Shown here: piece after piece, positions 50,046 to 54,178 of the stretch
Layout: every line of letters begins with the position of its first letter
How positions within the stretch are numbered: the stretch's first letter is position 1
Source: Azotobacter chroococcum
GTDB taxonomy: Bacteria > Pseudomonadota > Gammaproteobacteria > Pseudomonadales > Pseudomonadaceae
Length of the DNA stretch: 64,000 bases
NCBI RefSeq assembly: GCF_004339665.1
Contig: NZ_SMMU01000005.1
Location: forward strand, 124,001-188,000
Reading direction: 5' to 3'
Program-made: the position numbers and the translations under genes
Notes under the pieces: generated by a model
The model's database searches: none
What the model was told of the DNA's origin: nothing
The model's input: the letters and a program-made list of their open reading frames with translations, nothing else

Positions 50046-51416
50046 CTACGCCACCTTGATCGCCGCCATCAGCCCCGTCTCCATGTGGTCGACCACATGG
50101 CAGTGGAACATCCATAGCCCGGGATTGTCCGCCACCAGGGCGACCTGCGCGGTTTCGTTGCGCCCCAGCAGATAGGTGTCGGTGAAATACGGGTCGATCT
50201 TCCGGCGATTGGAATCCAGCACCTTGAAGGTCATTCCGTGCAGATGGATCGGATGCTGGTACTGGCTGACGTTGCGCAGCTCGAAGATGTAGCTGCGGCC
50301 CTGCTGCAGGGTGGCGATGGGCCGCTCGGCGCAGCTCCTGTCGTTGATGTCCCAGGCCTGGCCGTTGATCTGCCAGAACTTGAAGGCCCCGCCCTGCTCC
50401 ATGTTCGTCGACAGGGCGCCGGCCCACTCGAAGTTGAAGCGCAGGCTCTCTGCAGCGGCCAGATCGGGCTCCGGTATGGGATTGGCCGGCAGCGCGGCCG
50501 GCCAGTCGCCGGGCGCCTCGCCGCCGTCCACGCTCTTCAGGGTCGCCAGGCGCAGCGGACCGTTGCGCAGCGGCAACTCCACCCCGGCCGCCGGCACCCG
50601 GAGGCCCAGCTCGATGCGCATGCCCGGGCCCAGCCAGTACTCCTTGCCCAGCGGGCGCGGCGCGACGGGGTTGCCGTCCAGCGCGTAGATGCGCGCCTCG
50701 GCATCCGGCAGGTTGAGGCGATAGGTCAGGGTATTGTCGAGGTTGAGAATACGCAGGCGCACGATCTGCCCGGCGGGCAGCTCCAGGGTCGGCGCCGCCT
50801 CGCCGTTGACCGTGGTCAGCCGCCCCGGCGTGCCGCCGCGGGCTGCCTCGCGCGGCACGCTGAACTCGCCGAAGACGCCCTGCCCGTCGACATGCCAGCT
50901 CTTCAGGCTCAGCGTGCGCTCATGGCGGAAACCGCTGGGCTCGCGCTCCTCGACGATCAAGGGACCGACCAGCCCGCGGCCGAGCTGCTCGCCGCTGGCG
51001 GTGTGCGGGTGGTACCAGAAGCTGCCGGCGTCCGGCAGCCGGAAGCGGTAGTCGAAATACTCGCCCGGCAGCACCGGCAGCTGCGACACATAGGGCACGC
51101 CGTCCATCTCCAGCGGCAGACGGATGCCGTGCCAGTGGATGGTGCTCGGATCGGGCAGGCGGTTGACGAAGCGCACCCGCAGCCAGTCGCCCTGCCGCGC
51201 GCGCAACTCCAGCCCCGGCGCCTGGCCGCCGTAGGCCCAGACGGAGGTCCTGTGTCCCGGCACCAGTTCCACGTCCAGCGGTGCGGCGATCAGCTCGTAG
51301 TCGTGGGTTCTCGCCTCCTCCGGCCGCCCCAGCCAGTAGCGCGCGCCGCCGGCGCCCAGGCCGAGCACGGAAACGCCGGCCAGGCCGGCGAGGATCTGTC
51401 TGCGGGTAAAACTCAT
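50046..51416 (-). CDS. Tat-exported multicopper oxidase
   Basis: 456 residues with a Tat signal (TRRQILAGL followed by a hydrophobic core) and three cupredoxin domains. All copper-binding blocks are visible: IHWHGIRLP and WYHPHTASG in domain 1, and HPIHLHGMTF and MFHCHVVDHMETGLM near the C-terminus, which supply type 1, 2 and 3 ligands. It could be a ferroxidase, a cuprous oxidase or a laccase-like phenol oxidase; the substrate cannot be read from the sequence. A Fur-box-like sequence lies 76-94 bases upstream, which favours a link with iron. Confidence 0.93.
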   Translation of the reverse strand: MSFTRRQILAGLAGVSVLGLGAGGARYWLGRPEEARTHDYELIAAPLDVELVPGHRTSVWAYGGQAPGLELRARQGDWLRVRFVNRLPDPSTIHWHGIRLPLEMDGVPYVSQLPVLPGEYFDYRFRLPDAGSFWYHPHTASGEQLGRGLVGPLIVEEREPSGFRHERTLSLKSWHVDGQGVFGEFSVPREAARGGTPGRLTTVNGEAAPTLELPAGQIVRLRILNLDNTLTYRLNLPDAEARIYALDGNPVAPRPLGKEYWLGPGMRIELGLRVPAAGVELPLRNGPLRLATLKSVDGGEAPGDWPAALPANPIPEPDLAAAESLRFNFEWAGALSTNMEQGGAFKFWQINGQAWDINDRSCAERPIATLQQGRSYIFELRNVSQYQHPIHLHGMTFKVLDSNRRKIDPYFTDTYLLGRNETAQVALVADNPGLWMFHCHVVDHMETGLMAAIKVA

Positions 51417-51491: not shown

Positions 51492-51510
51492 GAAATAGTT
51501 TCTCATTATC
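51492..51510. promoter_or_regulatory. Fur-box-like site upstream of the multicopper oxidase
   Basis: Read on the minus strand, these 19 bases match the classical 19-bp Fur consensus at 14 positions, including the first eight (GATAATGA). It lies 76-94 bases before the oxidase start. No other known operator is closer. Confidence 0.4.
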
Positions 51511-51588: not shown

Positions 51589-51623
51589 AAAAACCCCATG
51601 GCCGCAACGGCCATGGGGTTTTT
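51589..51623. terminator. strong bidirectional terminator between fesII and the multicopper oxidase
   Basis: Perfect 16-bp stem (51589-51604 with 51608-51623) with a three-base loop, arms starting with five A and ending with five T. It lies 17 bases after the fesII stop, so fesII transcription should end before the oxidase gene. Confidence 0.95.
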
Positions 51624-51640: not shown

Positions 51641-52009
51641 TCAGGCGCCGCCCGGCTCTCCGGTGAACTCGACCAGCAGGTCTTCGTCGGTGACGATGGT
51701 CTGGCAGGCCAGACGGTAGGTCGGCGGGATATCACGCACGGCAGCGCGCTCCTCTTCGGACTTCGGCAGCTTGCCGACGGACTTGAGAACATTCCGCTCC
51801 TTGTCGGTCAGCATCATGCCCTTGATACGCTCGCCATCGAGGTGGGTGATCTTGACCAGACAGGAACCACACTTACCATCCTGGCACTCGAAAGGGATCT
51901 TGATGCCGTTTTCCTGGGCAACGCCCAGCAGCGTGGAACGCTTGCCGGCGACTGCTTCGACTTTCTTGTTATGCGGCATGAGCGGCGAAGAGAAATAAAT
52001 CGTAGCCAT
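51641..52009 (-). CDS. fesII: 2Fe-2S ferredoxin FeSII (Shethna protein II), nitrogenase protection
   Basis: 122-residue [2Fe-2S] ferredoxin. Under oxygen stress FeSII binds the Fe and MoFe proteins of nitrogenase and locks them in a protected inactive complex. The cluster ligands are Cys42, Cys47, Cys50 and Cys102. The N-terminal PHNKK stretch gives Lys14-Lys15 in mature numbering, the pair reported to matter for complex formation. The segment about 64-82 ([19 protein letters not shown]) corresponds to the mobile loop. AAGGA lies eight bases before ATG. It is a single gene with its own terminator. The identification rests on memory of the A. vinelandii protein; a few residues seem to differ. 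Confidence 0.95.
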
Positions 52010-52345
52010 ACAAAAATCCTTTCCGTAATTAATTACCAGACCAACTCACGTGCATCCGCCACATTAATCGCGGAGGCGCGGCAACACTGAATAGCAACTT
52101 GCAAAAGTTGTAAATCACTGTAGAGACAGCCCTTTATCCTCAAGGACCGTGAGGACGATAGTACTTATAGAAATCCTCCAGCACAATGATTTTAATCATG
52201 GAAATTTTTCAAAAAAGTTTCCATGCAAATCATTAGCAAAGTATCTAAATAACTTTCACGGCTGTCTCGCCGGGACTTTTATATACTTCTTACTTGCACT
52301 GATTTCTCAAATGCGAATAACAACTTCATGTCGCACAGCATAGTT
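52010..52345. promoter_or_regulatory. AT-rich island upstream of fesII
   Basis: About 335 bases of visibly low-GC DNA in a high-GC chromosome, ending about where the guaA downstream region begins. It has no credible gene. It contains a 16-bp palindrome CAACTT-N4-AAGTTG at 52095-52110 and the long dyad at 52185-52234. A possible sigma-70 -35/-10 pair on the minus strand (TTGAGA about 52305-52310, TATATA about 52280) would give a ~270-base leader. No sigma-54 -24/-12 pair was found. From 52346 to 52512 the sequence returns to high GC. Confidence 0.6.
52185..52234. repeat. long imperfect dyad in the fesII upstream island
   Basis: CATGGAAA (52197-52204) pairs with TTTCCATG (52218-52225); inside it TTTTT faces AAAAA, and outside it AATGATTT (52185-52192) faces AAATCATT (52227-52234). 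ATGATTTTAATCAT (52186-52199) is itself a palindrome. This can form a ~20-bp AT-rich stem in RNA, or bind a dimeric regulator. Confidence 0.6.
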
Positions 52346-52431
52346 CCGCGCTACGGAGGGCATGGACGAGGAAGGCAGCACAACTGCCCGAAGCGGAAGG
52401 AGCTGTGGAAAGGGAACGTCCGGAAAGGACG

Positions 52432-52459
52432 CTGCCGACGCCCAGAGGGGCATCGGCAG
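52432..52459 (-). terminator. probable guaA terminator hairpin
   Basis: Stem of 7 + 4 bp (52432-52438 with 52453-52459; 52440-52443 with 52448-52451) and one mismatch, 54 bases after the guaA stop. No long T tract follows on the minus strand, so it is a weak candidate. Confidence 0.45.
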
Positions 52460-52512
52460 CAGACAGCAGGCGGGGAAGCGCGATGACGGACGCCGGGCGA
52501 CGGGCCGGCGCC

Positions 52513-54093
52513 TCACTCCCACTCGATGGTTGCCGGCGGCTTGCTCGACACGTCGTAGGTGACGCGGGAGATGCCGTCGATCTCATTGATGATGCGGTTG
52601 GAGACCTTCTCCAGCAGCTCGTAGGGCAGGTGCGCCCAGCGCGCGGTCATGAAGTCGACGGTTTCCACCGCGCGCAGGGCGACCACCCAGGCGTAGCGGC
52701 GGCCGTCGCCGACCACACCCACCGACTTCACCGGCTGGAACACCACGAAGGCCTGACTGGTCTTGTGGTACCAGTCGAAGTTGTGCAGTTCCTCGATGAA
52801 GATGTGGTCGGCGCGGCGCAGCAGGTCGGCGTACTCCTTCTTCACCTCGCCGAGGATGCGCACGCCCAGGCCCGGGCCGGGGAACGGGTGGCGGTAGACC
52901 ATGTCGTAGGGCAGGCCCAGCTCCAGGCCGATCTTGCGCACCTCGTCCTTGAACAGTTCGCGCAGCGGCTCGACCAGCTTGAGGTTCATGTCCTCGGGCA
53001 GGCCGCCGACGTTGTGGTGCGACTTGATCACGTGGGCCTTGCCGGTCTTGGCGCCGGCCGACTCGATCACGTCGGGGTAGATGGTGCCCTGGGCGAGGAA
53101 CTTGATGCCCTCGAGCTTGGCCGCCTCGGCGTCGAACACCTCGATGAAGGTGCGGCCGATGATCTTGCGCTTCTGCTCCGGGTCGGAAACGCCGGCCAGG
53201 TTGTCGAGGAACTGCGCCTCGGCATCGGCGCGGATTACCTTGACGCCCATGTTCTCGGCGAACATGGCCATCACCTGGTCGCCCTCATGCAGACGCAGCA
53301 GGCCGTTGTCGACGAACACGCAGGTCAGGCGGTCGCCGATGGCGCGGTGCAAGAGCGCGGCGACCACCGAGGAATCGACGCCGCCGGAAAGGCCGAGCAG
53401 CACGTTGGCGCCGCCGACCTGGGCGCGCACCTGGGCGATGGCGTCCTCGACGATGTTGGACGGCGTCCACAGCGCCTCGCAGCCGCAGATCTCGCGCACG
53501 AAGCGGGAGAGGATGCGCAGGCCCTGCTTGGTGTGGGTCACTTCCGGGTGGAACTGCACGCCGTAGTAGCCGCGCTTGTCGTCGGCCATGGCGGCGATCG
53601 GGCAGCTCGGGGTGCTGGCCAGCACATGGAAGCCTTCGGGAATCCCGGTGACCTTGTCGCCGTGGCTCATCCACACGTCGAGGCCGAGCACGCCGTCGTC
53701 GTCCACGTGGTCCTCAATGCCGTCGAGCAGGCGCGCCTTGCCGACCACATCGACGCGGGCGTAGCCGAACTCGCGCAGGTCCGAGCCCTGCACCTTGCCG
53801 CCGAGCTGCTCGGCCATGGTCTGCATGCCGTAGCAGATGCCGAAAAGCGGCACGCCCAGGTCGAACACCGCCTGCGGCGCACGCGGGCTGTCAGCCTCGT
53901 GCACCGACTCCGGCCCGCCGGCGAGGATGATGCCGCGCGGGGCGAAGGCACGGATGTCCTCGTTGCTCATGTCGAACGGATGCAGCTCGCAATAGACGCC
54001 GATCTCGCGCACCCGGCGGGCAATCAGCTGGGTGTACTGGGAGCCGAAATCCAGGATCAGGATGCGGTGGGCGTGGATGTCTTGGTGGGCCAT
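52513..54093 (-). CDS. guaA: GMP synthase (glutamine-hydrolysing)
   Basis: 526 residues. It aminates XMP to GMP. N-terminal glutaminase domain: Cys nucleophile in [10 protein letters not shown] (about residue 85), His and Glu in [14 protein letters not shown]-pyrophosphatase domain: P-loop [12 protein letters not shown] (about 233-244), and a C-terminal dimerisation domain ending ATIEWE. Two ATGs (54099, 54093) are available; GAGAG lies at better spacing for the second. It is downstream of guaB but separated from it by a 141-bp structured repeat, so co-transcription may be reduced. Confidence 0.97.
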
Positions 54094-54178
54094 GGCCATC
54101 TCTCTTGGCGGAATTCACAAACGACGCGGGGCTGTCCCGTTTTTTCACAACAGCAGCAGCCCCGTGTCTTCAGTTCTT

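Follow-up and report, generated by a model that had tools for sequence, protein, structure and literature searches.

In Azotobacter, the gene fesII, which encodes the ferredoxin FeSII known to protect nitrogenase, lies apart from the nitrogen fixation (nif) genes. Its control region was analysed in a window of 64,000 nucleotides from Azotobacter chroococcum (genome G000, contig C5, positions 124001-188000; the window refers to this whole stretch), together with three further Azotobacter species, 398 Pseudomonadaceae genomes and fesII loci from other genera. The explanation favoured here, with slightly more confidence than doubt, is that a fesII promoter of the NifA-sigma-54 type was replaced in Azotobacter by an AT-rich region with a different promoter, as judged by sequence comparison. 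The gene was located as follows:

51641-52009, minus strand: fesII, encoding FeSII (Shethna protein II), a [2Fe-2S] ferredoxin of 122 amino acids, recognized by phmmer, Pfam and its cysteines

By phmmer, this open reading frame (ORF) matched FeSII chains such as 5ffi (E=1.2e-77), a Pfam Fer2 domain was detected in its product, and cysteines 42, 47, 50 and 102 stood exactly at the FeSII positions, as given in the available portion of PMC3045800. The same portion describes a Lys14-Lys15 pair as needed for the interaction of FeSII with nitrogenase; HNKK was found at residues 13-16 with the initial methionine counted, and its lysines were taken as K14-K15 without it. The gene was the single match in genome G000. 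Its product was 96% identical to FeSII of A. vinelandii (Avin_39700; AcP, Achr_10540 in A. chroococcum), the same protein in the same stand-alone arrangement, with small changes only, such as Lys in place of Asn at residue 46, next to Cys 47, which binds the cluster.

Sites of the -24/-12 type were scored against the 11 defined positions of TGGCAC-N5-TTGCW; GG and GC had to be present, the cut-off was at least 8 of 11, and upstream activating sequences (UAS) were searched as the NifA-type motif TGT-N10-ACA. Among 17 fesII relatives outside Azotobacter (68-94% identity), 14 had a sigma-54 site, located between -51 and -66 from the start codon. Sites scoring at least 8 of 11 in the interval from -75 to -45 were found at 14 of 16 non-Azotobacter fesII loci (three from Amphritea, three from Marinobacterium and two from Methylocystaceae included), as against 355 of 20,000 random anchor points, and the 14 positives spanned nine genera or lineages. 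The corresponding count was 11 of 152 for other ORFs in the same loci, which were given several possible starts each and some of whose matches lay beside fesII in nitrogen-fixation surroundings. The motif TGT-N10-ACA was present at -240 to -80 in 11/16 of these fesII loci, compared with 3.5% of random points. In the positive control, 12 loci chosen among the nifH loci at hand in other genomes, ten scored 9 or 10 and 11 had a UAS within 400 bp.

Control of the kind seen at NifA-sigma-54 nif promoters such as that of nifH is likely for 14 of the 17 relatives, whereas Azotobacter fesII had neither a credible -24/-12 site nor a UAS. Within 400 bp of the gene, the best site with GG and GC reached 7 (at -380), 0, 4 and 0 of 11 in the four species, and TGT-N10-ACA occurred in none of them, while nifH in the same four genomes showed a site of 10/11 and two UAS in every case. 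The promoter difference between Azotobacter fesII and most of its relatives elsewhere is likely to be real. Outside the 17, no credible sigma-54 site was detected for the FeSII-like genes of 50-55% identity (G013, G029, G577, G612, G687 and a Methylococcus plasmid).

It is quite improbable that Azotobacter fesII would still be controlled by NifA and sigma-54 through a degenerate site. The best example, AGGCACGCGAGTTGGT at -46 in A. beijerinckii, scores 9/11 if the GC requirement is dropped, and induction of fesII without fixed nitrogen is reported in the accessible text of PMC8907163, but the GC of the -12 element is GG in AGGCACGCGAGTTGGT, the other three species reach 8 at most, and a UAS was absent from all four.

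The four Azotobacter species shared a different set of elements upstream of fesII:

52010-52345, minus strand: AT-rich island with 39.6% GC, found only in Azotobacter by composition and genome search
52187-52198, minus strand: palindrome TGATTAAAATCA (TGAT-N4-RTCA), with Fnr-like half sites lacking the outer T...A, at conserved spacing
52181-52186, minus strand: -35-like hexamer TTGTGC, a poor match, with TTGT invariant in four of four species and a 17-bp spacer
52158-52163, minus strand: -10-like hexamer TACTAT, inside an invariant 15-base block, TAAGTACTATCGTCC
52010-52151, minus strand: predicted 5' leader, from the alignment, some 142 nt long and containing the Shine-Dalgarno sequence AAAGGA as well as a small CAACTT...AAGTTG hairpin

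Together these formed a module reading TGAT-N4-RTCATTGT and then TAAGTACTATCGTCC, in which the distance from the centre of the palindrome to the end of TACTAT was 35 bp in all four species. From this spacing, transcription of fesII is predicted to start near 52151, and with a start seven bases after TACTAT the palindrome would be centred at -41.5. The hairpin of the leader was weak (z -1.55). A search of 174 loci with the 46-base module gave 22 matches, every one a copy of one of the four Azotobacter fesII regions. With up to two mismatches allowed, the palindrome core recurred twice elsewhere in these Azotobacter genomes and was met once in P. oryzagri. Integration host factor (IHF) sites in place of the palindrome were absent at 9/9 from Azotobacter and present in three of the 16 other loci.

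The sequence-only reading had described the bases upstream of fesII as strikingly AT-rich and as a possible dedicated regulatory region; the first description was confirmed and the second supported. The island (336 bp) was the region of lowest GC of that size in 395,184 sampled bases (66.6% GC) of the 4.86-Mb genome, and 200-bp regions as low as 35.5% GC were encountered only three times in that sample. A DNA search for the island gave matches in four of the 398 Pseudomonadaceae genomes, all from Azotobacter, and none in the other 394; across the four species it consisted of invariant blocks with diverging flanks. No known RNA element came close to its gathering score in the region. The same reading had taken the coding part of fesII to be of normal GC, a view that did not hold: its GC was 59.3%, and its GC at third codon positions (GC3) was 76.4%, below the 87-94% of seven neighbours and near the 77.8% of nifH in the same genome. 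Either shared history with nif genes or shared codon selection would explain this value.

These figures also bear on the idea that the island would be foreign DNA that arrived with fesII, its AT content a trace of origin and not of regulation. The very low GC, the Azotobacter-only distribution, the GC3 of fesII relative to its neighbours and the occurrence of close fesII relatives in distant genera agree with such an origin, which is nonetheless improbable: among plasmids, a 941-base query hit a single record, and there just 87 bases at the coding end, phages gave no fesII relative, nifH has a GC3 equal to that of fesII, and two other Pseudomonadaceae hold fesII without the island in the same neighbourhood. 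Moreover, invariant blocks at fixed spacing were kept in four species while the flanks drifted, as expected of regulatory sequence. A second palindrome was observed at 52304-52317, near the upstream end of the island. It is conserved and has one form, TTCTCATTTGAGAA, in A. vinelandii and A. beijerinckii and another, TTCGCATTTGAGAA, in the window species and G001.

Under the favoured explanation of a replaced promoter, NifA and sigma-54 would probably switch on fesII along with the nif genes in most of the examined relatives outside Azotobacter. The Azotobacter lineage would have lost this promoter and gained the AT-rich region in its place, and with it a sigma-70-like core (TTGTnn-N17-TACTAT) and a palindromic operator beside the -35 region, centred near -41.5. 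An operator so placed would suit a dimeric Crp/Fnr-type regulator. Such a protein could repress the gene until oxygen releases it, the role ascribed to CydR at cydAB, or could be an activator of class II; production of the oxygen shield would then follow oxygen and not strictly the nif signal.

One candidate regulator is CydR, the Azotobacter homologue of Fnr. It may bind the palindrome and keep fesII repressed when oxygen is low, in line with the action ascribed to it at cydAB; this is possible, yet doubtful. The fesII palindrome matched TTGAT-N4-ATCAA at 7-8 of 10 positions and had the inner half sites TGAY...RTCA in common with the CydR box, and its position next to the -35 element suits such a role, but the outer bases departed from the box in all four species and TTGAY-N4-RTCAA had no exact match in the whole window. 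Each of the four genomes had one cytochrome bd locus with TTGACCTGGATCAA (one base different in A. beijerinckii) and TTGACCTGCGTCAA upstream, at 9 and 8 of 10 matches; a second bd locus, found in three of the four, had nothing better than 8/10. In PMC2885672 CydR is named as the repressor of cydAB through CydR boxes, the letters of which were not taken from that source, and in the accessible text of PMC8907163 FeSII and the cyd genes belong to one set, raised more than 1.5-fold by 20% versus 5% O2 and by lack of fixed nitrogen. The fesII region thus resembles the CydR-controlled cydAB promoter in its Fnr-like inner half sites and in a similar published expression pattern, and differs from it in having one palindrome instead of two boxes and in the outer bases. 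Since the inner half sites and the expression set are shared and the outer bases are not, CydR is regarded as a candidate and not as a conclusion.

Control of fesII could instead be mainly post-transcriptional, through pairing of the Fur-repressed small RNA ArrF with the fesII leader. ArrF reportedly regulates feSII, according to the title of a 2008 paper, and an RNA of the PrrF family was found in all four Azotobacter species. Pairing at the ribosome-binding region was, however, no better than chance in a crude test that ignores internal folding, with shuffled sequences scoring as low in 539 of 1000 cases for the window and in 460, 363 and 160 of 1000 for G001, G002 and G003, and at 201 of 217 other gene starts the pairing was at least as strong. 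The cited target sodB did somewhat better (74 and 177 of 1000 at the likely start), which makes it only a modest control, and ArrF as the main regulator of fesII is considered unlikely. A version of the test with unrestricted duplexes was discarded, as 28 of 36 control starts gave pairing of equal or greater strength; with a short region, the pairing equalled that of shuffles. A second, weaker PrrF/ArrF-like RNA was seen in G000 and G002 (L061 and L062). Its 84 bits fell short of the family cut-off of 90, and a stretch resembling a Fur box lay near its start.

Several observations count against a replaced promoter or against the form proposed for it. The interval from -75 to -45 had been set after a first look, so that the contrast with the controls is inflated somewhat. 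The sigma-54 site was also absent in the metagenome-assembled genome (MAG) CSMAG_1280, in the Hahella MAG and in G544 (68% identity), its loss being therefore not unique to Azotobacter, and an independent test set yielded only G544, a miss, and a duplicate of Gynuella, with L175 left out as identical to L039. As a sigma-70 match, the core took first place in A. vinelandii and sixth in A. beijerinckii, and it did not reach the top eight in the window species or G001; given these ranks, the case for the core rests on conservation and not on score. The sigma-70 scan of the tool listed nothing on the gene strand. The palindrome is no canonical CydR box when set beside the 9 and 8 matches at the bd locus, and a score of at least 8/10 was reached 14 times in the 64-kb window, the fesII site included. 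Finally, the induction without fixed nitrogen reported in the accessible text of PMC8907163 means that some nitrogen control remains.

The position of fesII was examined with respect to the following neighbours and terminators:

52513-54099, minus strand: guaA, upstream of fesII
50046-51416, minus strand: multicopper oxidase gene, downstream of fesII
51589-51623, minus strand: intrinsic terminator of fesII with a 16-bp stem, a 3-nt loop and a T run, from fold and conservation
52395-52512, minus strand: spacer after guaA with a strong hairpin (fold z -5.36)

On the minus strand the order was guaB, guaA, fesII, multicopper oxidase and tadA; mltF lay on the plus strand, and purL further on. Pfam identified the neighbours as GMP synthase, IMP dehydrogenase, multicopper oxidase, deaminase and transglycosylase; their short names and purL were assigned from the translations. 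The sequence-only reading had fesII inserted between guaA and the oxidase as genes adjacent in other pseudomonads, a claim that stands in part. Among 15 relatives lacking fesII at the locus, guaA adjoined the oxidase in four (gaps of 242-1043 bp), a fifth had the oxidase about 4.2 kb from guaA, and the remaining ten, including G013 with its fesII-like gene elsewhere, showed no oxidase in the roughly 7-8 kb taken beyond guaA. Against an insertion made in Azotobacter, the guaA-oxidase-tadA neighbourhood held fesII in two other Pseudomonadaceae lineages as well, with a different slot in each of the three: guaA-fesII-oxidase-tadA in Azotobacter, guaA-fesII-(2.3 kb)-oxidase-tadA in CSMAG_1280 and tadA-fesII-mltF in P. 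oryzagri. Because P. oryzagri and CSMAG_1280 share the neighbourhood, fesII may have a longer history at the guaA locus than Azotobacter itself, and the island is the Azotobacter-only part. Only three of 19 inner branches of the FeSII tree were well supported, so that the tree does not decide between transfer and loss in Pseudomonadaceae, nor between an old and a reused site. No Pfam match was obtained for the ORF tried between guaA and the oxidase of P. oryzagri. In CSMAG_1280, the ORF adjoining fesII on the opposite strand (L053:8694-9281) carried a Nitro_FeMo-Co domain (PF02579, E=1.3e-16), the domain of NifX-type proteins, and fesII may not be wholly without nif-type company there.

The terminator ascribed to fesII by the sequence-only reading proved strong (-36.5 kcal/mol for 71 nt, z -4.45, with none of 200 shuffles as low) and was present in all four Azotobacter species, although a simple terminator scan did not list it. 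The hairpin in the guaA spacer, likewise unmatched by any of 200 shuffles and followed by no T run, is possibly the terminator of guaA, though fesII transcription could also begin further upstream. Upstream of the multicopper oxidase, GATAATGAGAAACTATTTC was noted at 51492-51510 on the minus strand, kept in the four Azotobacter species with one variable base; it resembles a Fur box, and iron may thus regulate the oxidase. The lack of linkage between fesII and nif, also stated by the sequence-only reading, was already in print: in PMC4465626, the A. chroococcum genome paper, the gene is monocistronic and unlinked to nif, and its authors find it surprising that none of the nif or vnf clusters encodes this protein, which copurifies with nitrogenase.

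Outside the family, fesII occurred in diverse surroundings. In Amphritea it followed a cluster encoding a TIGR01616 nitrogenase-associated protein, a SagB-like dehydrogenase and rhodanese-, ankyrin- and Grx4-like proteins (named in L037, the other two loci being assigned by clustering). It lay near rnf genes in both Methylocystaceae MAGs and in Gynuella (rnfB named in L032, the rest by clustering), between a ClpX-like gene and a solute-binding protein gene in Hahella, after a syd gene in Marinobacterium (named in L029, the others by clustering), and between a peroxidase and a DUF6055 gene in Thalassolituus. Unlike Azotobacter fesII, a FeSII-like gene (51% identity over 98% of the protein) on a plasmid of Methylococcus sp. 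EFPC2 lay inside a run of nif genes, between nifK and nifE (nifHDK-X-nifEN), and FeSII genes are described inside the nif clusters of some other bacteria, such as that of Planctomycetota, in the accessible text of PMC12628686. The surroundings of Amphritea fesII and of nifHDK on the Methylococcus plasmid (L037, L042, L168) had several gene kinds in common: ArsC-like nitrogenase-associated, SagB/nitroreductase-like, rhodanese and ankyrin-like.

Within the Pseudomonadaceae, a fesII or fesII-like gene (E<=1e-12) was detected in eight of 398 genomes, six at 90% identity or more and two at 50-54%, and nifH (E<=1e-60) in 23, including all eight with fesII and 15 without it; one of the eight, G061, was counted as nifH-positive from two fragments on different contigs. 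The overlap had a hypergeometric p of about 3e-11, without correction for relatedness and assuming the same 398 genomes in both searches, as the handles agree where both list them. The island and fesII were accordingly not encountered in a non-diazotrophic pseudomonad among these genomes, a case that the sequence-only reading had named as adverse to it. Close relatives outside the family came from Marinobacterium, Amphritea, Thalassolituus, Gynuella, Hahella, Neiella and Fluviicoccus, from an Alteromonadales MAG and from two MAGs labelled Methylocystaceae (L038, L044-L047 with short matches at 32-41% identity, and other weak matches were left out, the first from the nifH count). There, nifH was above the cut-off in 11 of 13 fesII genomes, but not in MAGs G420 and G425, a count limited by MAG labels and completeness. 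One plasmid record held a fesII relative and no phage record did, and a mobile origin was rejected as a candidate.

Further side observations concern the distant homologues and nifH. The FeSII-like ferredoxins of 50-55% identity (L054 from G029, L055 from G013, and L177-L179) lacked the GEPGGA tail, and G013 and G029 had three nifH-family genes each above the cut-off. The nifH-family matches G003:C1:4961279-4962100 and G013:C8:108908-109729 (464-467 bits) contained one TGA in each matched stretch, possibly only the end of the gene.

The protein, its function and structures, its expression pattern, its stand-alone position (available part of PMC4465626) and the presence of FeSII in nif clusters (accessible text of PMC12628686) were known already. 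What appears to be new is that fesII is preceded by a sigma-54/NifA signature in other genera but not in Azotobacter, that an AT-rich island carrying a fixed module is confined to this genus, and that the gene occupies three different slots within a single neighbourhood; a literature search by title, which did not cover the text of every paper, found none on the fesII promoter. As a further step, the Azotobacter ancestor may have moved fesII, by upstream replacement, from the NifA-sigma-54 regulon to an oxygen-responsive promoter of the Crp/Fnr type, so that the shield would be made ahead of nitrogenase or independently of it, a proposal that is plausible but falls somewhat short of probable. 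A defined 46-base element and candidate regulators have been gained, and for the transfer of oxygen-tolerant nitrogen fixation to other hosts the comparison suggests that fesII needs no nif promoter. It also offers a reason for the location of fesII outside nif, as the Azotobacter gene seems to answer to another signal than in most diazotrophs examined. If true, the move of fesII to an oxygen-responsive promoter would represent a regulatory step toward nitrogen fixation in full air.
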